Both the position numbers and the translations under genes were made by a program. Shown piece after piece: positions 14,352 to 27,233 of a stretch of DNA of 32,993 nucleotides; within the stretch, counting starts at the first letter, position 1, and every line of letters starts with the position of its first letter. Location: contig JAKSLE010000028.1 of NCBI GenBank assembly GCA_024401365.1, positions 1-32,993 on the forward strand. The letters are read 5' to 3'. The notes beneath the pieces were generated by a model. The model was not told the origin of the DNA. It searched no databases and was given only the letters and a program-made list of their open reading frames with translations. This stretch comes from Bacteroidales bacterium. Its GTDB lineage: Bacteria; Bacteroidota; Bacteroidia; Bacteroidales; Marinilabiliaceae.

Positions 14352-14376
14352 CAGAAACTCACATTTGTTTACAATT

Positions 14377-16143
14377 ATGATTCAGAAAAGATTCACTAGT
14401 AAGTTAGTTGGTGCGGCAGCGATTGCTTCTACATTGGCGTTATTTTCATGTACGTCGAAAACGTTGATGCCTGATAATGGGGCGCATGTACTCATGAACC
14501 AGGTAGCCTTTTATCCTGAAGGCGATAAGATATTAGTACTTGACAGTGCTTATACGGGCGAGGTAGAGTTCAGAGACATGAACAATGAGTTGGCCTATGT
14601 CAGTGAAGTAGCAGAAGTCAAGCAATCACCATTTTCTGGTGCACCTCGATACATAGTAGACTTTTCGGGTCTAGATATCGAAGGCAAATATCAGGTAGTA
14701 GCTGGCGATATGAGGCAGACACTTGAGGTAAAGTCGGGAGCATTGAGAGATGTTGCTAAGGCAGCGCTCAAGGCATTCTATTACCAGCGTTCGGGTGTAG
14801 AGATAGAGGCGAAGTATGCTGGCAAATGGGCGCGACCACTTGGACATCCAGATACAAATGTAATGGTTCACCCTACGGCTGCAACGAAAGAGCGTCCTGC
14901 GGGTACGATAATCAGTTCGCCATTTGGCTGGTATGATGCAGGAGACTACAACAAGTACATTGTAAATTCGGCATATTCCATAGGTATCATGCTTCAGATG
15001 TATGAGACTATACCAGAATATTTTGAAAAGTTTGACGTTGATATTCCAGAGACAGGCAATGGAGTTCCTGATCTTTTGGACGAGATATACTTCAATTTGA
15101 AGTGGATGGCGACTATGCAAGATACAGACGGCGGTTTGTATCATAAGTTGACCACACCAAACTTTGAGGCATTTATTATGCCATCGGAGTGCAAGCAGCA
15201 GAGATATGTAGTACAAAAGAGTGTAACGGCCTCTTATGACTATGCAGCATGTATGGCTATGGTTGCCCGTATATATGCAAAGTATGATCTTTATGCAGAA
15301 TTTGCTAAAGAGATGTTAGAGAGTGCAAAGAAGGCATATAAATGGGCTAAGGCCAATCCAACTGCATTATATTTCCAAGGCAAGAACAATGAGAAGTATG
15401 ATCCAGACGTGGTAACAGGCGAGTATGGTGATTTCAACGCATCGGACGAGCAGTTGTGGGCTGCTACCGAGCTTTACATCTCTACTGGAGACGAGTCGTA
15501 CTGGAAAGATACAAAAACGCTCTGGCCAAAGTCATATGGTTTGAGTTCTTGGGGCAATGTGGCATCCATTGCGCAGTGGGAGCTTATTTCGAAAGACAAC
15601 TTTGTGTCTACAGACGAAGCCTTTGAGCATCGTAAGTATTTTAACGACTATATAGAGACATTGGAAGCCAAGTTTGCTCAGTCGGACTTTGCCTGTGCTT
15701 ATGGTGCAGTAGCTACAGACTTCCATTGGGGCTGTTTGTCGGAAGGCTGTTGCAATGCAGGAGCTGAGATTTTGAGGGCATACAAGAAGATAGGTCTTCC
15801 TAAGTACAGGACTATGGCCGTTTCAAATGCCGACTATATACTTGGAAGAAATCCAATGGGCAACTGCTACGTTACAGGTTTTGGGTACAAGAGCACAAAG
15901 AATCCACACCAGAGGCTATCGCATGCGGATGGCGTAGAAGATCCACTTCCAGGATTCCTTGCAGGTGGGCCTAATCCAGGCAAGCAAGATGGGTTGACCT
16001 ATCCATGTGACTATCCAGACATGTGCTACCTTGACGATATGAATTCATACGCTTCGAATGAGATTGCCATAAATTGGAATGCGTCGCTTGTTGCATTCTT
16101 GGCATGTCTAGACGATGTGATGAGTAATTTAGAACAATATTAG
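14377..16143 (+). CDS. GH9 endoglucanase/cellodextrinase lipoprotein
   Basis: An inverting glycoside hydrolase of family 9, expected to cut beta-1,4-glucans such as cellulose fragments or mixed-linkage glucan. I start it at the ATG at 14377 (588 residues); a TTG 12 bp upstream is less likely because the ATG gives a clean lipoprotein signal ending in LFSC with lipidation at C25. Residues about 35-125 form the N-terminal immunoglobulin-like domain seen in CelD-type GH9 enzymes. The (alpha/alpha)6 catalytic domain follows, with D187 and D190 in GWYDAGDYNKY, H511 in NPHQR and the probable acid E562 in YASNEIAINWN. No carbohydrate-binding module or dockerin and no neighbouring SusC/SusD pair are seen, so it is not in a classic polysaccharide-utilisation locus. 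It likely faces outward or the periplasm, handling oligosaccharides. Confidence 0.94.
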   Translation: MIQKRFTSKLVGAAAIASTLALFSCTSKTLMPDNGAHVLMNQVAFYPEGDKILVLDSAYTGEVEFRDMNNELAYVSEVAEVKQSPFSGAPRYIVDFSGLDIEGKYQVVAGDMRQTLEVKSGALRDVAKAALKAFYYQRSGVEIEAKYAGKWARPLGHPDTNVMVHPTAATKERPAGTIISSPFGWYDAGDYNKYIVNSAYSIGIMLQMYETIPEYFEKFDVDIPETGNGVPDLLDEIYFNLKWMATMQDTDGGLYHKLTTPNFEAFIMPSECKQQRYVVQKSVTASYDYAACMAMVARIYAKYDLYAEFAKEMLESAKKAYKWAKANPTALYFQGKNNEKYDPDVVTGEYGDFNASDEQLWAATELYISTGDESYWKDTKTLWPKSYGLSSWGNVASIAQWELISKDNFVSTDEAFEHRKYFNDYIETLEAKFAQSDFACAYGAVATDFHWGCLSEGCCNAGAEILRAYKKIGLPKYRTMAVSNADYILGRNPMGNCYVTGFGYKSTKNPHQRLSHADGVEDPLPGFLAGGPNPGKQDGLTYPCDYPDMCYLDDMNSYASNEIAINWNASLVAFLACLDDVMSNLEQY

Positions 16144-17452: not shown

Positions 17453-18475
17453 ATGGTTGGAGCTACACTAGATAATAGAGCCGACATTTTTTGTCAGAAT
17501 CCGGAATTTATCTATTCGATGATAGATAATTTGCCATTGGGTTTTCTATATCTGAGTTACGTAAGGGACTCGGCGGGGGATGTTGTGGATTTGAAGATAG
17601 ATGCTACGAATAGGGTATTTGAGAAATTTATTGACACCTATGAGATCAAGGGGATGTCGGCCAATGCTGTTTTAGGGCGAGAGACGCGTCACCTGATAAA
17701 AGTTTGTCAAGAGGTAGAGCAGAAGAGAGGCAAGCAAGTTGTAGAGGACTTTATGTTCAGCAACTCGGTCAAAATGAGCGCGGTAGTATATATGCCTACT
17801 GCCGGAGAATTTGTATGTTTTGTCTCTCTTGACCCTAGTGAGTTGCAACAATCTGAGCTAGAAGATGAAAAAAGTTATATTTTCAGCGAACCTCAGAACT
17901 TATTACGCGTAAACGCGGATATACAGCATCTTCTTAGGACCCATCTTAATGCTATTATGGGTTTTGCGGAGTTGGTTAATAGTGAAACAGATCAAAACAA
18001 CAAAGATAGGTATATGGAAATCATTAAAGAGAACGTGCAAGCGCTAATGGATTCCAGTATAGTTAAGGGATCTGATGCTGAACCAGTTGTAGAGACACAG
18101 GGAGTGGTAAAGCAATCGGGTAAGCCTCGTATTCTTGTAGCAGAGGATACGGAGAGCAACTATATGCTTGTATCGTATATTCTCAAGGGAGAGTATGAGC
18201 TTGTATGGGCGCGAGACGGTGTAGAGGCGGTAGAAGCCTTTGAGAATGAAAGGCCGGATTTGGTTTTGATGGATGTACGTATGCCACGAATGAGTGGACT
18301 TGCGGCTACCGAGCGAATCAGGGAGGTTGACAAGGAGATACCTATTATTGCGTTGACAGCATTTGCATTTGAGAGTGACAAGGCGAAGACGATGGAGGCT
18401 GGATGTACGGACTTTATAGCTAAGCCGATAAATGCTATGGCTCTCAGAGATATTATTAGGAGGCATTTACGATAA
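17453..18475 (+). CDS. PAS / DHp-like / receiver protein lacking the kinase ATPase domain
   Basis: A 340-residue signalling protein. Residues 20-130 look like a PAS sensor (IYSMIDNLPLGFLYL start). Residues 150-203 match the dimerisation-phosphotransfer helices of a histidine kinase: HLLRTHLNAIMGFAEL aligns with the usual HEIRTPLNAIxGFAEL, keeping the histidine (H159) but replacing the Glu and Pro of the H-box. Only about 20 residues separate this from a complete receiver (about 222-340) with phosphoacceptor D274 in LVLMDVRMP, an acidic pair in AEDTESNY and K in IAKP. The roughly 150-residue HATPase domain, with N, G1 and G2 boxes, is absent and the frame is intact, so this is not a recent break. 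It cannot phosphorylate itself from ATP and may act as a phosphorelay sink, adaptor or regulated dimer. The next gene starts 25 bp later. Confidence 0.85.
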   Translation: MVGATLDNRADIFCQNPEFIYSMIDNLPLGFLYLSYVRDSAGDVVDLKIDATNRVFEKFIDTYEIKGMSANAVLGRETRHLIKVCQEVEQKRGKQVVEDFMFSNSVKMSAVVYMPTAGEFVCFVSLDPSELQQSELEDEKSYIFSEPQNLLRVNADIQHLLRTHLNAIMGFAELVNSETDQNNKDRYMEIIKENVQALMDSSIVKGSDAEPVVETQGVVKQSGKPRILVAEDTESNYMLVSYILKGEYELVWARDGVEAVEAFENERPDLVLMDVRMPRMSGLAATERIREVDKEIPIIALTAFAFESDKAKTMEAGCTDFIAKPINAMALRDIIRRHLR

Positions 18476-18500: not shown

Positions 18501-19931
18501 ATGGGACTTTTCAGTTTCCTCTTCGGAGGTAAATATCCATCGACTAAGTCGTATGAGAATAAGTGCCTTCAGCATGAGGCAGAATATAAGCGTTATCAGG
18601 ATTTTGCGAAATCGTCTGATTTGGCTAGGTACAGTGAGTTGAAGACGCTTGTTGAGTCGTCGGATTTCAAGGCGAAGGTAAACAAGTTGAAGAACGAGCG
18701 TTTTGCCGACACTGAAGCTGCGAAGAAGGAGAATGAGTATAAGGCATTGGCCTCTTCGGCTGATATTAAGTCGTATTTGAACATAGAGAAGAAGGTAGAG
18801 CCAAAATTGCAGTCGGCTTTATCGTCACAGAATTACGCTACATACGTTGAGTTGAAGTCGGAAGTTGAGTCTCCAGAATTTATTGCGAAGACCAGGGCGA
18901 AGGACTTCAAGAAGAGTATTGAATTCCAGACATTGAAGCGTTATCAGAAAGCAGCAAAGTCGAGCGAGGTCAAGTTTATCAACAAGACACAGCCAAGTCA
19001 AGCATACAGAAACTACCTTGCGACGAAGAGTGGAAGTCGTTTGGCTAGATATGAAGAACTGGGTCAGTATTTGGCATCTTCAGAGTTCAAATCGTTCAAG
19101 GCTGAGATGACAGACAAGAAGCGTTTTGAGAAGAGTGAGGAGTGCAGACTATTGAAAGAGTTTGAAAAATTGTCGAAGAGCAAAGATTTGGTTTGGTACA
19201 ACAAGTGTACAGCTGCGCATACATTTGCAGACCTAGCCAAGTGGAAGATGACATTCCAGGACGAATTTGATGGAGGCCAGCTTGATAGTTCGAAGTGGAC
19301 ATTTGGTTATTATTGGGGTCAGGCCCTGATGAACGGTGTATACAGTCTAGACAAAGAGAAGCAAGCATTTGAGAAGAACAATGCCAGGGTATATAACTCT
19401 GAGTTGACGCTTTCTACGGTAAAGGGTATGACACGCGGCAAGGCATGGCAGATACCTCAAGGCTTTGTTGACAAGGACTTTGACTATTCGTCGGCATGTA
19501 TCAATACGGGTGCAAGTTTCCGTCAGAAGTACGGTCGTTTTGATTTCAAGGTTAAGTTTGATTTCTCTAAGCCGTTGACACACAATATCTGGCTTGCTGG
19601 AGAAAAGAGTATGCCACAGATCAATATTGCCAACTATGGTACATTGAAGTCGAAGCAGATAGAGACCAGTGTAATTACGAAGGACGGCAATCAGGAGACG
19701 ATACTTGACGGAGCAGATTTCAGTTCGGGCTATTATATTCTTTCATTGTTGTGGACACCTGAGAAGATGGTATGGAGTGTCAACGGTGTAGAGGCGTTCA
19801 CTATCAGGAAGAATGTTCCACAAGAGCCTATGTACATTGTATTGAGTAGCAACCTTACACAAGATGCGCCTAAGTTGACAAATTCGTCGATGGTTTTGGA
19901 TTGGGTAAGGGTATATACATGGCAAGAGTAA
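18501..19931 (+). CDS. Repeat protein with a C-terminal GH16 fold whose catalytic acids are all replaced
   Basis: A 476-residue protein with no signal peptide (MGLFSFLFGGK start). Residues 20-245 are Lys/Glu/Ser-rich, predicted helical, with about three repeats of 55-75 residues; each begins like LARYSELKTLVESSDF (seen near 43, 112 and 180) and ends in a Phe/Tyr-Lys-rich helix. Residues 247-475 are a clear GH16 (beta-glucanase/laminarinase-like) jelly roll: FQDEFDGGQLDSSKW, KYGRFDFKVKF, LLWTPEKMVWSVNG and the closing VLDWVRVYTW. The active-site strand, normally ExDxxE, reads Q373-I-N375-I-A-N378: nucleophile, helper and acid are all amides. Hydrolysis by the family mechanism should be impossible, while sugar binding could survive. 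Likely a cytoplasmic or cell-associated glycan-binding or scaffold protein. It lies 25 bp after the PAS-receiver gene and may share its transcript. Confidence 0.85.
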   Translation: MGLFSFLFGGKYPSTKSYENKCLQHEAEYKRYQDFAKSSDLARYSELKTLVESSDFKAKVNKLKNERFADTEAAKKENEYKALASSADIKSYLNIEKKVEPKLQSALSSQNYATYVELKSEVESPEFIAKTRAKDFKKSIEFQTLKRYQKAAKSSEVKFINKTQPSQAYRNYLATKSGSRLARYEELGQYLASSEFKSFKAEMTDKKRFEKSEECRLLKEFEKLSKSKDLVWYNKCTAAHTFADLAKWKMTFQDEFDGGQLDSSKWTFGYYWGQALMNGVYSLDKEKQAFEKNNARVYNSELTLSTVKGMTRGKAWQIPQGFVDKDFDYSSACINTGASFRQKYGRFDFKVKFDFSKPLTHNIWLAGEKSMPQINIANYGTLKSKQIETSVITKDGNQETILDGADFSSGYYILSLLWTPEKMVWSVNGVEAFTIRKNVPQEPMYIVLSSNLTQDAPKLTNSSMVLDWVRVYTWQE

Positions 19932-20366: not shown

Positions 20367-20443
20367 TGACGTATTTTAGTTTTATTTTGGTTTTCATTTT
20401 GCATAGAGTGAGGACCCCATCCTTTTGAAAATTATTGACAAGA

Positions 20444-22927
20444 ATGACAAAGCTTGTACTAAATATATACCACTATTTCAGGTCGCATAAATTGGTTATG
20501 TGGTCGTTGTTGTTGCTATCAACGGCTGTTTTAGCGATATTAGGTTCCAGGTTGGAATATGAAGAAGATATAACCAGTTTATTACCAAAGACATCCAATA
20601 CAAATGAGAAGTTGGCCTTTGCCAATTTGAGGGTTAAGGACAAGATATTTGTGTTGATGACATCCAGCTCGTCAGAGATGTTGGATCCTGAGTATCTAGC
20701 AGACCTCAGTGATGAGTTTGTGGACAAGTTGATGGCAAAGGATGGTGCTGAAGATTGTATCAGAGACGTTCTGTATCAGATAGATGAGTCGGTACTCATG
20801 GATGCGATGGGGTACATTGCGGATAATTTTCCATGTTATGTACAGGAAGAGGACTATGAATTGATAGACTCATTGCTCAGTGAGGAGTCGATAGTAGAGC
20901 AGATGGGTAAGAATTACGAGTTGCTCACAAGTTCTGCAGGTGTGGTCATGAAAGACATTGTAAAGATTGACCCTATAGGCATGAAGTCGATCCTTGTTGA
21001 CAGGCTTAAGGATGTAAAAGATGGCCTTGGCAGCAATCAGATAATTCTTTCGAGCCATTTGTTTACGCCAGACTCTACCACGGCGTTATTGTATGTCTCT
21101 CCAAACTTCAAGTCGTTCGATTCGAAGAGCGGAAAGTTTTTAGTAGACATGTTGGAGAGCCACATCAAGGAATTTGAGGCAGAGAATCCAGATGTAAAGG
21201 TATATTTCCATGGTTCCCCTGTTCAGAGTGTATACAACTCGAAGCAAGTTAAGGCAGACCTTTCGCTTACAGTTACAATTTCTCTTGTTATCTGTTTGAT
21301 AATCATAGGATTGTGCTTTAAGAACAAGTCGACATTGACACTCATTATATTGCCAGTACTTTGGGGTACATGTTTTTCTTTGGCGATGATGTATCTGATA
21401 AGAGGTACGATGTCGCTTATGGCATTAGGTATTGGAGCTATTGTATTAGGTGTGGCGTTGAGTTACTGTCTGCACGTTATCACCCATTACAAGTATGTCA
21501 GTACGCCAGAAAGGGTTATACAAGATCAGGCAAAGCCAGTCTTTTTGGGCTGTTTGACAACTATTGGTTCATTCCTTGGTCTATTGTGTACTCAGTCGGC
21601 ACTTTTGAAGGACTTCGGACTATTTGCAAGTTTTGCACTTATAGGTACAACCTTCTTCAGCCTTATATTCCTTCCACATTTCTTCAATCCACAGAGAAAC
21701 AGAAGATCCCAGAAGGCATTTGTGGCTTTAGAGAAATTCAATTCTCATCCATTTGAGAAGTACAAGTGGGTAATTGTTGCGATTGCCATCATCAGTTGTG
21801 TATGTTTCTATACGCAGAGATGGGTAACATTTGATGCAAATCTTGCGAATGTAGGATATAATGCACCAAAAGTTGTAGAGTCGAGGGAGTTGTTGGCATC
21901 GAAGACACAGCCAGGCTATGTTACTACATATTATGCCTCTGCAGCCAATGATTTGGACAGTGCGTTGTTGTTGAGCCGTCAGGTCTGTGCTAGTATGGAC
22001 AAGATGCGAGATGCTGGGTTGGTTAAAGGCTACAGCAAGGCATCTACACTATTCCTGACAGAAGAAGAGCAGCAGGCGAATCTTGATGCGTGGGCAGAAT
22101 ACTGGACAGATGAGAAGATAGAAGATGTTATGAGCAAGGTAATACGTGCTGGTGCCAAGTACGGTTTGAAGCCATCATTCTTCTATCAGTTCCAAGAGAT
22201 GTTGGAAGCAGAATCTATTGAGCCACAGTCGCTTTATGAAGCAGATATTATTCCAGAAGGACTTTTGGCTAATATGATTGAGCATACAGATGGGGTATAT
22301 ATGGTATTTACTCCTGCGCAGATGACTATTGAGAATCAGAAAGCGGTAGGAGAGAATATTGCAGCGATAAAAGACTGTGTGGTGGTAGACCCTATGTTCT
22401 ATGCTACAAATATGATTGAGACGATAAATAACGACTTCCAGATAGCCTTGAATATTTCGATGGCCTTTGTATTTTTGGTATTGTTGGTATCGTTTAGGGA
22501 TATTGTATTAAGTATACTAGCATTTATACCTATGATGTTGAGTTGGTATATTGTACTCGGTGTTATGGGAATAATGGGTGTACAGTTTAACCTGATCAAT
22601 ATTGTCATTTCGACATTTATATTTGGTATAGGAGTAGACTATAGTATATTTGTGATGGATGGACTGTTGAGTAAAGCCAAGAGTAACAGCGACACTATGT
22701 TGCTGGTATATCACAAGACAGCTATTTTCTTCTCGGCAGTTGTACTGATTATCTTTACGGGATCGCTTCTGTTGGCGACCCATCCAGCGATAAAGTCGAT
22801 AGGTTTAGCTACCATTATAGGTATGACCTCGGCCGTTGTTTTAGCTTATACACTCCAGCCATTCCTATTCCGTCAGCTTGTGAATCTTATGGTTCGTAAG
22901 GGATGGAAAGCAAAGTGGTTGAAATAG
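20444..22927 (+). CDS. MMPL/RND-family exporter
   Basis: I start this at the ATG at 20444 (827 residues); a TTG three codons earlier adds nothing. The layout is that of the MMPL/HpnN branch of the RND superfamily: one transmembrane helix (about 20-37), a periplasmic loop of about 230 residues, a bundle of five helices (about 270-420), then a second helix, loop and bundle (from about 440 and 670-820). Conserved features include LGVALSYCLHVITHY in the first bundle and FGIGVDYSIFVMDGL in the second, matching the GxxxDY proton-relay helix. Members export lipids and lipid-linked products across the inner membrane. The nearby acyl carrier protein suggests a lipid or polyene cargo, which is inference. 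A PD-(D/E)XK-like gene begins 15 bp after it. Confidence 0.88.
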   Translation: MTKLVLNIYHYFRSHKLVMWSLLLLSTAVLAILGSRLEYEEDITSLLPKTSNTNEKLAFANLRVKDKIFVLMTSSSSEMLDPEYLADLSDEFVDKLMAKDGAEDCIRDVLYQIDESVLMDAMGYIADNFPCYVQEEDYELIDSLLSEESIVEQMGKNYELLTSSAGVVMKDIVKIDPIGMKSILVDRLKDVKDGLGSNQIILSSHLFTPDSTTALLYVSPNFKSFDSKSGKFLVDMLESHIKEFEAENPDVKVYFHGSPVQSVYNSKQVKADLSLTVTISLVICLIIIGLCFKNKSTLTLIILPVLWGTCFSLAMMYLIRGTMSLMALGIGAIVLGVALSYCLHVITHYKYVSTPERVIQDQAKPVFLGCLTTIGSFLGLLCTQSALLKDFGLFASFALIGTTFFSLIFLPHFFNPQRNRRSQKAFVALEKFNSHPFEKYKWVIVAIAIISCVCFYTQRWVTFDANLANVGYNAPKVVESRELLASKTQPGYVTTYYASAANDLDSALLLSRQVCASMDKMRDAGLVKGYSKASTLFLTEEEQQANLDAWAEYWTDEKIEDVMSKVIRAGAKYGLKPSFFYQFQEMLEAESIEPQSLYEADIIPEGLLANMIEHTDGVYMVFTPAQMTIENQKAVGENIAAIKDCVVVDPMFYATNMIETINNDFQIALNISMAFVFLVLLVSFRDIVLSILAFIPMMLSWYIVLGVMGIMGVQFNLINIVISTFIFGIGVDYSIFVMDGLLSKAKSNSDTMLLVYHKTAIFFSAVVLIIFTGSLLLATHPAIKSIGLATIIGMTSAVVLAYTLQPFLFRQLVNLMVRKGWKAKWLK

Positions 22928-23880: not shown

Positions 23881-24228
23881 ATGATTGTAGACTTAACTTT
23901 TTTGCAGGAAGCTACAGACGGCAATAAGGAGTTGATTCAGCAATTAGTTGACCTGTTCAGAGAGCAAGTTGACGAGTTCAGGGGAGAAATGGAAGATTCG
24001 CTCGCTGAAAATGATGCAGAGAGGCTCAGGAAAGTTGCACATAAAGCAAAGGGTAGCATTTCTGCGTTAGGGATGATGGACGTAAGGGCATCTCTGCAGG
24101 AGATGGAAGATGTTTGTATAGGGTATAATGGAGGTTCGTTGAAAGAAGAGTTAGGCGAGAAGGTTGAGTCATTTTTGCGAGATATCAGGCAAGCGTTAAG
24201 TGAGCTTGATGAGTATTTGGCGAGTTAG
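23881..24228 (+). CDS. Free-standing HPt (histidine phosphotransfer) protein
   Basis: A 115-residue all-helical protein. H54 lies in KVAHKAKGSISALGM, which matches the HPt motif H-x-(L/A)-K-G-S/A. The family passes phosphate between receiver domains in multi-step relays. Nothing else is fused to it. It lies 36 bp before a STAS gene, with a candidate promoter in front. Possible partners in this window are the receiver at 17453 and the receiver-Fis regulator at the left edge, both of which lack a kinase of their own; this connection is inference. Confidence 0.85.
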   Translation: MIVDLTFLQEATDGNKELIQQLVDLFREQVDEFRGEMEDSLAENDAERLRKVAHKAKGSISALGMMDVRASLQEMEDVCIGYNGGSLKEELGEKVESFLRDIRQALSELDEYLAS

Positions 24229-24264: not shown

Positions 24265-24573
24265 ATGATAGAAGTAAATCGCACACCAGCGGAGACCATT
24301 ATAACGGTTTCGGGTATCAACAGGGTCACTGTAACAAATGCAGGAGAGTTGAAGGCTGCTGTTGTTGATTGTCTGACAAAAGACAAAGAGAATGTAGTTC
24401 TCGATTTGAACGAGATAAAGTATATTGACAGTACAGGTATATCTGTGCTTATCTCGGGTGTTAAGTCGGCACGCGAGAATAATTTACGTTTTGAGCTTCA
24501 GAATGTTCAAGAAGAAGTTATGAAGCTTATGCGTTTGATGAAGATTGACAAGATTATTGACATTCGACATTAA
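24265..24573 (+). CDS. STAS-domain protein, anti-sigma-factor-antagonist type
   Basis: A 102-residue single STAS domain with VVLDLNEIKYIDSTGISVLI. S56 in the conserved D-S-T-G is the residue phosphorylated by a partner anti-sigma kinase in SpoIIAA/RsbV relatives. Such proteins switch partner binding on dephosphorylation. No serine kinase, PP2C phosphatase or sigma factor lies nearby, so its partner is unknown. Its last 20 bp overlap the end of the convergent hydrolase gene at 24554-25909, so the two transcripts overlap tail to tail. Confidence 0.87.
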   Translation: MIEVNRTPAETIITVSGINRVTVTNAGELKAAVVDCLTKDKENVVLDLNEIKYIDSTGISVLISGVKSARENNLRFELQNVQEEVMKLMRLMKIDKIIDIRH

Positions 24574-25909
24574 GCGATATTCGCTTTTGCCAATTTTTGT
24601 CGTTTTCGAGAAGGTCTTTATCGGGCAGATCGATAACTGGGATAATTCTATCCATAATGAGTTTAACCACCGTGGCTAATTCTGGACCGCGGTGGTTTCC
24701 TGTATTCATAAGGACCACGTAATTGACGCCATTGGGGTGGCGGGCTATCATCGCGCAAGTAGCTGCCAATGTGCCACTTCGGTACCATTTTTCGCCGTTG
24801 GTTGCTCTCCATCCAATAGGGTCGAAACCCGGTTGGTGTTCGGTCATAGACTGTATAGATGTAGGGGAGAGGATATCGGGCACGTCATTAAAGCCATCAA
24901 TAGCCAGAGTAAGTTTCAAAAGATCAGTAGCGCTAGCGGTCCAACCACCTGCGGCACCCAAGGTTCGGATATCTGTACCACCATAAGATCGGCGGACGTA
25001 CTCTATAGAATCGTTGTTGGAATAATCCATAGCGCAAGCCGAAGAATCGGCCTCGTAGTAATAAGCCTCATAGGGTAGGGTTTCGTTTTTGAAAGAGTTG
25101 CCAATGTGCATATCATATATACCCAGTGGTGCCAATATTTCTGATTTCACGTAATCTTCGTAGGGCATACCAGAGACTTTAGCAATTATTTCGCCCAAGA
25201 TACCATAGCCGAAATTGCAATATACAGACGACGATCCAGGGTTGAAGTGGACGCGTTTCTTGAGCATGAAACGGATGATATCCTGCATTGATATAGGCAG
25301 TTTTTTGCCAATTTGGCGAGCGATAGAGTGGGGCATGAACATTGGGTCGCCCCAACGGGTAGTCCATCCTCCAGAGTGATTGAGGAGGTGTTTGATGGTT
25401 ATGTTGCCTATACGTTTATCCTTATAAGCCTGATAAATTTCATCGTTTAGGATGCCATTAGGTCCGAATACGTGCTGATTGAGAGATATTTTACCCTCAT
25501 CTATCAAGTGCATAATTGCGACAGCTGTAAGAAGTTTAGATACGCTAGCAATACGCATGGTATTGTATGGCTGCATTTCTATGCTATCCTCCATATTGCT
25601 GAATCCAAAACCTCGGCTATAGACTATTTTGCCATTTTTGCTAATAGCTACCTGTGCGCCACCTCTCAGAAACTCGTGGCGGAATAGGGATTTGAGATTT
25701 TTGTCGATTATTTCGATTATTTCGATTATGGTATCGTTATCCGAATTACTTATATGGAAAGAAGTCGGTTCTGTATAGTCGGAAGTAGTTAATAATTCAG
25801 GAGAAGTTATAGTAGACGTAGAGGACAAGAATAATACCTTGCCCCCTAGCCACAGAGCTATGGTTAGTAATGTTGAAATTAAAGTATATATTATATATTT
25901 ATTCTTCAT
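24554..25909 (-). CDS. Beta-lactamase-family serine hydrolase, membrane-anchored
   Basis: A 451-residue protein. An N-terminal hydrophobic segment (about 5-28) anchors or exports it. The class C beta-lactamase/penicillin-binding-like domain carries S122-V-S-K125 (catalytic SxxK) and Y230-C-N232 (YxN), with NHSGG and GILGEIIAKVSGMPYEDY typical of the family. A HxG-like third motif is not obvious; RSGTLAATC (about 390) may fill that place. Members include D-amino-acid peptidases and esterases as well as true beta-lactamases, so resistance should not be assumed. It is the last gene of a four-gene minus-strand operon, 1 bp after the MATE gene. A 9-bp tandem repeat lies in the linker after the anchor. 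Confidence 0.85.
   Translation of the reverse strand: MKNKYIIYTLISTLLTIALWLGGKVLFLSSTSTITSPELLTTSDYTEPTSFHISNSDNDTIIEIIEIIDKNLKSLFRHEFLRGGAQVAISKNGKIVYSRGFGFSNMEDSIEMQPYNTMRIASVSKLLTAVAIMHLIDEGKISLNQHVFGPNGILNDEIYQAYKDKRIGNITIKHLLNHSGGWTTRWGDPMFMPHSIARQIGKKLPISMQDIIRFMLKKRVHFNPGSSSVYCNFGYGILGEIIAKVSGMPYEDYVKSEILAPLGIYDMHIGNSFKNETLPYEAYYYEADSSACAMDYSNNDSIEYVRRSYGGTDIRTLGAAGGWTASATDLLKLTLAIDGFNDVPDILSPTSIQSMTEHQPGFDPIGWRATNGEKWYRSGTLAATCAMIARHPNGVNYVVLMNTGNHRGPELATVVKLIMDRIIPVIDLPDKDLLENDKNWQKRISLNVECQ
25705..25730 (-). repeat. 9-bp tandem repeat inside the hydrolase gene
   Basis: The plus strand reads CGATTATTT nearly three times in a row, coding for repeated I-I-E in the linker (about 61-68). 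The repeat keeps frame, so slippage would change linker length and not break the gene. Confidence 0.7.
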
Positions 25910-25910
25910 T

Positions 25911-27233
25911 TCACTTTATTTTGAGGGTTCCCTCGCGGAATTTGCGGTTCCATCGATGGAGCATTACCCAGCCTCGGATATTTTCGTCAGCTGAGAATGC
26001 CATCCAGATGCCAGCTAATCCGAGACCGCAATAGATACCCCAAACCCAAGACATGCCAGTAGCTACGCCCCATACGGAGATGGCACCGAAGGCGACAGGG
26101 AAAACGTAATCGCCTGCTGCTCGGAGGGCTCCGATGACTATCATATTCAAGGCGCGTCCGATTTCAAGGATTATATCTATCCATACAGTAGTTACTACTA
26201 TTGATATGATTATAGGATTATCTGTAAATATTTCAATTATCCAAGGGCAAGCACAAGCGATTATGATGCCCATAGTAACGGAAACCTGTATAGCTCTTTT
26301 TGAGCAATATAGGCATAATTTGTGGGCGGCGTTGACACGTTCCTCGCCAACTAGGAATCCGACCATGATGGTACAACTCTGAGATACGGCGAAGGTGAAC
26401 AAATAGCCGACCAACACGATATTTATCAGGTATGTACGAGCGATAAGAGCCTCGTTGCTGATAAGGTTGATAAAATATGTCACGGTAATCTGGGATAAGT
26501 CGTATGAGATCATTTCGCCTGCGCCGGGGAGTCCTATATTCAGAACTTCCTTAAGTTTATCCCATCTGAAAGGCAAGGCATCGCTCAAGTGGAGATCCTT
26601 TACTACGATTTTCTTCAGGCATATAAAAACTATAGTAAGAGAGATAAGGCGTGAGAATACGGTACTGATAGCGGCACCCTCGACACCTAGGGCGGGGAAA
26701 GGACCATGGCCGAAGATGAGCATATAGTTGCCGATGATGTTTACGATATTGACAACAAATATGGCTACCATAGGGAATTTTGGGCGTTGCAAGCTACGAA
26801 GTATAGCTGAAACAGTAAGGGACAAAGCCTGTACCCAAGCAAAGCTACCCACTATGCGCATATATGAGATAGCGTAATCCCTAAGTTCGGGGCGTAATCC
26901 CATCATATCTATCAATTCTGGGGCGTAGAAGAACAACAAGGCACTCATTATGGAAGAGAATACCATATTGAATACTAGGGATACTCCTATGATCTCCTTT
27001 ACATTCTGGTGTTCTTTCATGCCCAGATACCTAGAACATAGGACGCTAGTACCAGTTGTAACGATGCCAAAGAGCAAGAATACCATATTCATGAGCTGGT
27101 TGACAACTCCTACGGCGCCTACGGCGTAGTCGGAATAAGAGCCCAACATAAAGGTATCGCCCATTCCCAGTAACATTACTAGTGTAATTTCAAGGAAGAT
27201 TGGCCATGTCAGGTGTAGTAATCTGTTTTTCAT
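25911..27233 (-). CDS. MATE-family multidrug/lipid efflux transporter
   Basis: A 440-residue protein with about twelve transmembrane helices and two homologous halves. The start LTWPIFLEITLVMLLGMGDTFMLG is the family's usual first helix, and GAAISTVFSRLIS marks the middle. It resembles NorM/DinF-like exporters that use H+ or Na+ gradients. It sits between a lipid-kinase-like gene (30 bp before it) and a serine hydrolase (1 bp after it), in an operon that starts with a wall hydrolase, so an envelope substrate is possible. Drug export cannot be inferred from sequence. Confidence 0.9.
   Translation of the reverse strand: MKNRLLHLTWPIFLEITLVMLLGMGDTFMLGSYSDYAVGAVGVVNQLMNMVFLLFGIVTTGTSVLCSRYLGMKEHQNVKEIIGVSLVFNMVFSSIMSALLFFYAPELIDMMGLRPELRDYAISYMRIVGSFAWVQALSLTVSAILRSLQRPKFPMVAIFVVNIVNIIGNYMLIFGHGPFPALGVEGAAISTVFSRLISLTIVFICLKKIVVKDLHLSDALPFRWDKLKEVLNIGLPGAGEMISYDLSQITVTYFINLISNEALIARTYLINIVLVGYLFTFAVSQSCTIMVGFLVGEERVNAAHKLCLYCSKRAIQVSVTMGIIIACACPWIIEIFTDNPIIISIVVTTVWIDIILEIGRALNMIVIGALRAAGDYVFPVAFGAISVWGVATGMSWVWGIYCGLGLAGIWMAFSADENIRGWVMLHRWNRKFREGTLKIK

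Follow-up and report, generated by a model that had tools for sequence, protein, structure and literature searches.

A 476-residue protein with a GH16-like C-terminal domain is encoded on contig JAKSLE010000028.1 of a Bacteroidales bacterium (Marinilabiliaceae; assembly GCA_024401365.1), in a stretch of 32,993 nt that was analysed as a whole and is referred to below as the window. Neighbouring genes in the window were named from Pfam, those of other loci by reading their sequences. The features that matter for the argument are the following:

14365-16143, forward strand: GH9 cellulase-like protein with a CelD_N domain, three genes upstream of the GH16-like gene (Pfam)
17453-18475, forward strand: receiver-domain protein with a sub-threshold HisKA match, ending 25 bp upstream of the GH16-like gene
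18501-19931, forward strand: GH16-like gene, 476 aa, ATG start; short hydrophobic start, three helical repeats and a putative GH16-fold pseudoenzyme domain
18501-18545, forward strand: N-terminal residues 1-15, MGLFSFLFGGKYPST, in which a crude test finds no clear signal peptide
18621-18782, forward strand: helical repeat 1, residues 41-94 (repeat profile i-E 3.0e-19)
18834-18989, forward strand: helical repeat 2, residues 112-163 (repeat profile i-E 5.5e-15)
19038-19205, forward strand: helical repeat 3, residues 180-235 (repeat profile i-E 6.2e-22)
19236-19922, forward strand: GH16 jelly-roll domain, residues 246-474 (Pfam, laminarinase profile match, Foldseek)
19593-19616, forward strand: eight-residue loop preceding the nucleophile column, residues 365-372, without Trp
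19617-19634, forward strand: degenerate catalytic strand Q373-I-N375-I-A-N378 (profile and homologue alignments)
20435-22927, forward strand: MMPL-family transporter gene, downstream
23881-24228, forward strand: Hpt-domain protein (Pfam)
24554-25909 and 25911-27233, reverse strand: gene of the Pfam Beta-lactamase (serine hydrolase) family and, adjoining it, a MatE transporter gene (Pfam)

The assignment of the C-terminal domain to the GH16 fold is supported by profile and structure comparisons. PF00722 matches residues 291-469 of the window protein (E 1.8e-9; 37.7 bits against a cut-off of 22), and since the cut-off of the GH16 model is passed, surveys of polysaccharide breakdown can list such genes as glucanases. 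Among 15 family members scanned against Pfam at E up to 0.1, PF00722 is matched in all 15 and SKN1_KRE6_Sbg1 also in three, and nothing beyond these two GH16-type families is found. A 15-row family profile compared with laminarinase structures covers the whole domain (4dfs, E 4.8e-18; 3azx, E 9.5e-18) and sets the family P-q-i-d-i-l-k opposite G-E-I-D-I-M-E of both structures, while the P-Q-I-N-I-A-N of the window aligns with E-E-I-D-I-F-E of three repeat-less homologues with Glu, Asp and Glu in the catalytic columns (E/D/E; L037-L039). Q373, N375 and N378 thereby fall in the nucleophile, middle-acid and acid/base columns. The first-pass annotation, which had quoted the reading frame, the residue numbers and the motifs FQDEFDGG, KYGRFDFKVKF and WTPEKMVWSVNG correctly, had put the catalytic strand at the same place. 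Residues 373-377 also lie on a strand in an AlphaFold2 model of the domain, which has a pTM of 0.70 and a mean pLDDT of 65.8, falling to 58 in the block of ten residues where most of the catalytic strand lies; both AlphaFold2 models were built from few aligned rows (5 and 8), and their confidence in the jelly roll is low to medium. With the first of these models as query, Foldseek places GH16 laminarinases on top (3azx best, E 3.6e-9), with TM-scores on the query of only 0.22-0.31 over the best 50 hits, because the query is half helical and its jelly roll is poorly modelled.

To place the three amides in the context of the family, 128 rows were aligned, namely the window, 67 loci of the same taxonomic family, L035 and L036, and 58 of 60 order-level loci chosen from the matches listed. 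Four of these rows (L065, which is partial, L132, L133 and L135) have no repeat above threshold. Left out were L140 and L037-L039 (E/D/E and repeat-less), L141 (repeat undetected, weak score, columns I/D/R), the contig-edge fragment L075, and the duplicates L002, L003, L033, L034 and L079-L085. Column 373 reads Q in 63 rows, H in 40, E in 13, M in six, and six further residues once each; column 375 reads D in 81, N in 34, T in five, S in four, E in two, and L and Q once each; column 378 reads K in 59, R in 33, N and S in eight each, C in six, T and H in three each, D in two, I in one, and E in five divergent rows whose alignment is unsure. No row, that of the window included, has Glu at both 373 and 378 (0/128), so that the catalytic loss in the window goes beyond chance, and a search for homologues of the same architecture with E/D/E in these columns, which had been named as a refuting observation, likewise found none among the 128. 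The usual state across the family is Q/H-D-K/R, and three amides occur together in only 4/128 rows, the window, L004, L005 and L006, which form one small clade. The aligned family is thus, by prediction, catalytically dead, with the three amides a local variant; the idea that acid-to-amide change was itself the selected state does not hold up against columns that vary in this way. Two loci of the same genus, L042 and L050, read E/N/T and lack the residue aligned with P372. It is very unlikely that the protein is still an enzyme working by an altered mechanism through other residues: a Glu does survive in the nucleophile column of 13 rows and the middle Asp in 81, but the acid/base column carries K or R in 92/128, the two glutamates never occur together, and column 373 wanders among Q, H, E and M.

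Regarding the substrate cleft, the stretch that separates W364 from column 373 is a loop of eight residues in 126/128 rows and of seven in the other two, and contains a Trp in none. A Trp is present in this loop in six of ten E/D/E homologues (L148, L149, L150, L152, L140 and L001) and absent in the other four (L037-L039 and L153); L151, which has no motif, and L153, which reads E-M-D-V-F-E, lay outside the loop alignment, and L153 was read separately. The first-pass annotation had described the rest of the jelly roll as well preserved, which is too strong in view of this loss. Judging from its spacing, the missing residue would correspond to Trp-264 of ZgLamA, which, in the portion of the source available, lies five residues ahead of Glu-269 and is part of the -2 subsite (PMC4606783). 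Because the Trp before the nucleophile is gone throughout the family, binding of ordinary beta-glucan appears doubtful. W316 and G321, in turn, are invariant in 128/128 rows, which suggests that they belong to a conserved site or core. Binding without cleavage, as had been proposed, is a presumed role.

The N-terminal half of the window protein is built from three helical repeats of about 69 aa each. The repeat consensus spans about 56 residues with a period of about 69-70, and the repeats are helical in the AlphaFold2 model, where the ten-residue blocks from 31 to 240 have a pLDDT of 88-97. Repeat copies were counted in 133 proteins, i.e., the 128 family rows and the dropped rows L037-L039, L140 and L141: one copy is found in 8, two in 19, three in 72, four in 8, five in 13, seven in 1, eight in 1 and nine in 2, and none is detected in nine (L037-L039, L140, L141, L065, L132, L133 and L135). 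The protein lengths of the family step by about 70 residues, in line with a copy number of 1-9. Among solved structures, none matches the repeat sequences at E up to 1. A search for repeats standing without a GH16 domain yielded, among the matches listed, one short candidate of 231 aa (G158:C112), which is taken as a cut gene because it ends at a contig edge. The same genome carries a repeat-family gene at two contig edges, the C112 end (L154) and the C87 end (L107), and the two pieces are possibly one gene broken in assembly by its own repeats.

Homologues are present in 69 of the 71 genomes of the taxonomic family of the host, its own included; two (G057 and G066) have no homologue match and one (G033) has a fragment only. 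The repeat profile matches 99/393 genomes of the host order, again with its own included, and 2/395 genomes of the phylum, which are the own genome and a weak match, L147 (E 1.2e-4), dismissed as a repetitive protein that looks unrelated. When the proteins of 295 genomes from the class were searched, the repeats were matched, among the matches listed, only in the own genome and in one genome of the same family, and the other matches listed start no earlier than residue 230, within the GH16 part. A phage or mobile origin was considered and set aside, as no relative could be confirmed in scans of viral contigs. Whole-gene dN/dS is 0.048-0.078 in five close pairs with unsaturated dS and 0.080-0.101 in three further pairs whose dS is close to saturation, two of ten pairs being not computable; purifying selection on the gene is strong. 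That the gene is decaying, or resembles GH16 by chance, might be suggested by catalytic residues that are lost and variable, and is given next to no weight: it is rejected on the low dN/dS together with the retention of the gene in 69/71 genomes, and the invariance of W316 and G321 speaks against it too. The earlier view of a pseudoenzyme with an intact fold signal and not of a relic is borne out by the same dN/dS values and by the lack of E/D/E in all 128 rows. The pseudoenzyme family is judged to be real, conserved and specific to the order.

With regard to its origin, a tree of 61 of the 128 family rows and six E/D/E enzymes keeps the two groups apart with a support of 100/100, a value obtained with the bootstrap not settled and with L037-L039 and the longest family rows left out. 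It is from this tree that a single origin is drawn. A larger tree of 131 rows nests the distant E/D/E proteins L037-L039 within the family, on a branch 2.78 long, which is read as a long-branch placement and counts against a clean single origin. Four E/D/E proteins from other genomes of the class (L148, L149, L150 and L152) have no repeat match and start, as judged by eye, with a hydrophobic, signal-peptide-like segment, and the own genome also encodes an ordinary GH16 protein (L001) with the motif EIDIME and a hydrophobic start ahead of a Cys.

The gene neighbourhood was compared across 98 loci (99 minus L135, where the target was not found), many of which end at contig ends. Neighbours vary by lineage and are mostly housekeeping genes, as judged from their sequences, so that the context names no pathway; with no neighbour cluster present in more than 15 of the 98 loci, a polysaccharide-utilisation locus was rejected as an explanation. 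The order GH9, U32, receiver protein, GH16-like gene and MMPL transporter is kept in the window and in L033 and L034, which apparently come from the two genomes that also contribute L004 and L005. A receiver homologue adjoins the gene in L004, L005 and L006, i.e., in 3/31 other loci searched, most of them with about 1.5 kb of flank, and these loci and the window together coincide exactly with the three-amide clade. The receiver protein and the Hpt protein of the window flank the GH16-like gene as if belonging to one phosphorelay. It can be hypothesized that the family acts as a cytoplasmic protein-protein adaptor whose jelly roll binds a protein and, in the clade of the window, partners the receiver-domain protein encoded upstream. 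The adjoining receiver gene, which reads in the same direction in all four members of the clade, the family-wide loss of the Trp ahead of the nucleophile, and a loose cluster near the gene that includes signalling proteins (15/98 loci) would agree with such a role; however, the receiver is a neighbour in so few of the other loci, and the loose cluster mixes such different proteins, that the adaptor is a tentative and rather unlikely alternative.

As regards localisation, a P-x-T-x-x-x-E motif lies within the first 40 residues of 88/128 homologues. The best Kyte-Doolittle window mean over the first 40 residues, with a cut of 2.0, was compared between 127 family rows (L065 left out) and 11 repeat-less GH16 controls. 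A mean of at least 2.0 is reached by 0/127 family rows against 6/11 controls with a 12-residue window, by 8/127 against 8/11 with a 10-residue window, and by 26/127 against 9/11 with an 8-residue window. A loose lipobox is found in none of the 127 family N-termini and in 3/11 controls; a stricter lipobox pattern matched 0/11 controls and is therefore uninformative, and two controls (L038 and L039) have no signal whatever. By this crude test, in which family and controls overlap, signal peptides in the family look unlikely, and because of that overlap a cytoplasmic location can only be inferred. A surface or secreted glycan-binding helper for polysaccharide use, exported weakly or by a non-classical route, would agree with the GH16 ancestry of the domain, with the GH9 cellulase-like gene three genes upstream that is kept in L033 and L034, and with the overlap of N-terminal hydropathy with the controls at short windows. 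The loose lipobox and the 12-residue threshold, each at 0/127, and the mostly housekeeping neighbours nevertheless make it quite improbable.

Taken together, the data are best accounted for by an order-specific, probably cytoplasmic, non-catalytic GH16-fold protein that serves in binding or as a tether or scaffold on a stalk of one to nine repeats, a reading to which a probability of roughly 0.55 is given. The GH16 domain would be the head that binds, its ligand being either a protein partner or a glycan held in a remodelled cleft. The helical repeats would form a spacer or scaffold, longer in some lineages than in others, and the short hydrophobic N-terminus would provide an anchor or a point of assembly. 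The protein would hold a ligand in place instead of cutting it. As to its history, the domain may derive from a secreted GH16 enzyme and have become joined to the repeats, with the acid/base function lost once, at that fusion, as K or R at column 378 in most rows would suggest; columns 373 and 375 would then have drifted, the three amides being the end state in the clade of the window. In a more specific version, which is speculative and on the whole unlikely, the family would consist of order-wide intracellular glycan-binding tethers, in which a GH16 domain was brought inside, disarmed once and set on its stalk, and the remodelled cleft with the invariant W316 and G321 holds a precursor of an envelope or storage glycan at a set distance from the N-terminal anchor. 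If a cytoplasmic glycan or protein tether is indeed at hand, the family would provide a clear example from bacteria of how a degradative enzyme is recruited intracellularly as a binding module on a stalk of variable length.

Among known systems, the GH16 laminarinases share with the family the jelly roll, the register of the catalytic strand and the spacing of the beta-bulge, as reflected in the profile and Foldseek matches; the window family differs in having no Glu pair and no loop Trp, in carrying helical repeats and in showing no clear export signal. The laminarinases 3azx and 4dfs (Thermotoga) and ZgLamA are presumably members of subfamily GH16_3. The N-terminal glucan-recognition domain of insect beta-glucan recognition proteins is CBM39, and a domain of this type is absent here, the N-terminal half consisting of helical repeats with no other Pfam match in the 15 members scanned. 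The first-pass annotation knew of no described family with its combination of features. Searches of the open-licence literature, in the parts available, likewise brought up no bacterial or Bacteroidales family of such architecture, which is apparently undescribed. Known cases are treated in PMC6827312, PMC13352502, PMC6403176 and PMC4606783; the non-catalytic use of the GH16 fold as such is, however, known from insects and from mycobacterial Rv0315. The insect beta-1,3-glucan recognition proteins or GNBPs are non-catalytic GH16 proteins which, in the excerpts of the source, resemble the family in being GH16-derived, in having lost the catalytic glutamates and in possessing an extra N-terminal region (PMC6403176). 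They act as immune receptors in animals and have gained an N-terminal or carbohydrate-recognition region, whereas the window family is bacterial, carries helical repeats and is probably cytoplasmic. Rv0315, an inactive beta-1,3-glucanase (PDB 4wzf), is likewise a bacterial GH16 fold devoid of activity and appears among the Foldseek matches at rank 48; unlike the window family, it keeps both glutamates (Glu-171 and Glu-176), and the available part of its description makes no mention of repeats (PMC4606783). It has a signal peptide, of which none is evident in the window family by a hydropathy test that overlaps with its controls. Loss of one or both catalytic residues has been reported, in the section of the survey at hand, for about 9% of GH16_4, 0.7% of GH16_3 and 1% of the others, the GH16_4 losses being metazoan and fungal and not resolved as monophyletic groups, whereas in the window family the loss marks a whole bacterial lineage (PMC6827312).
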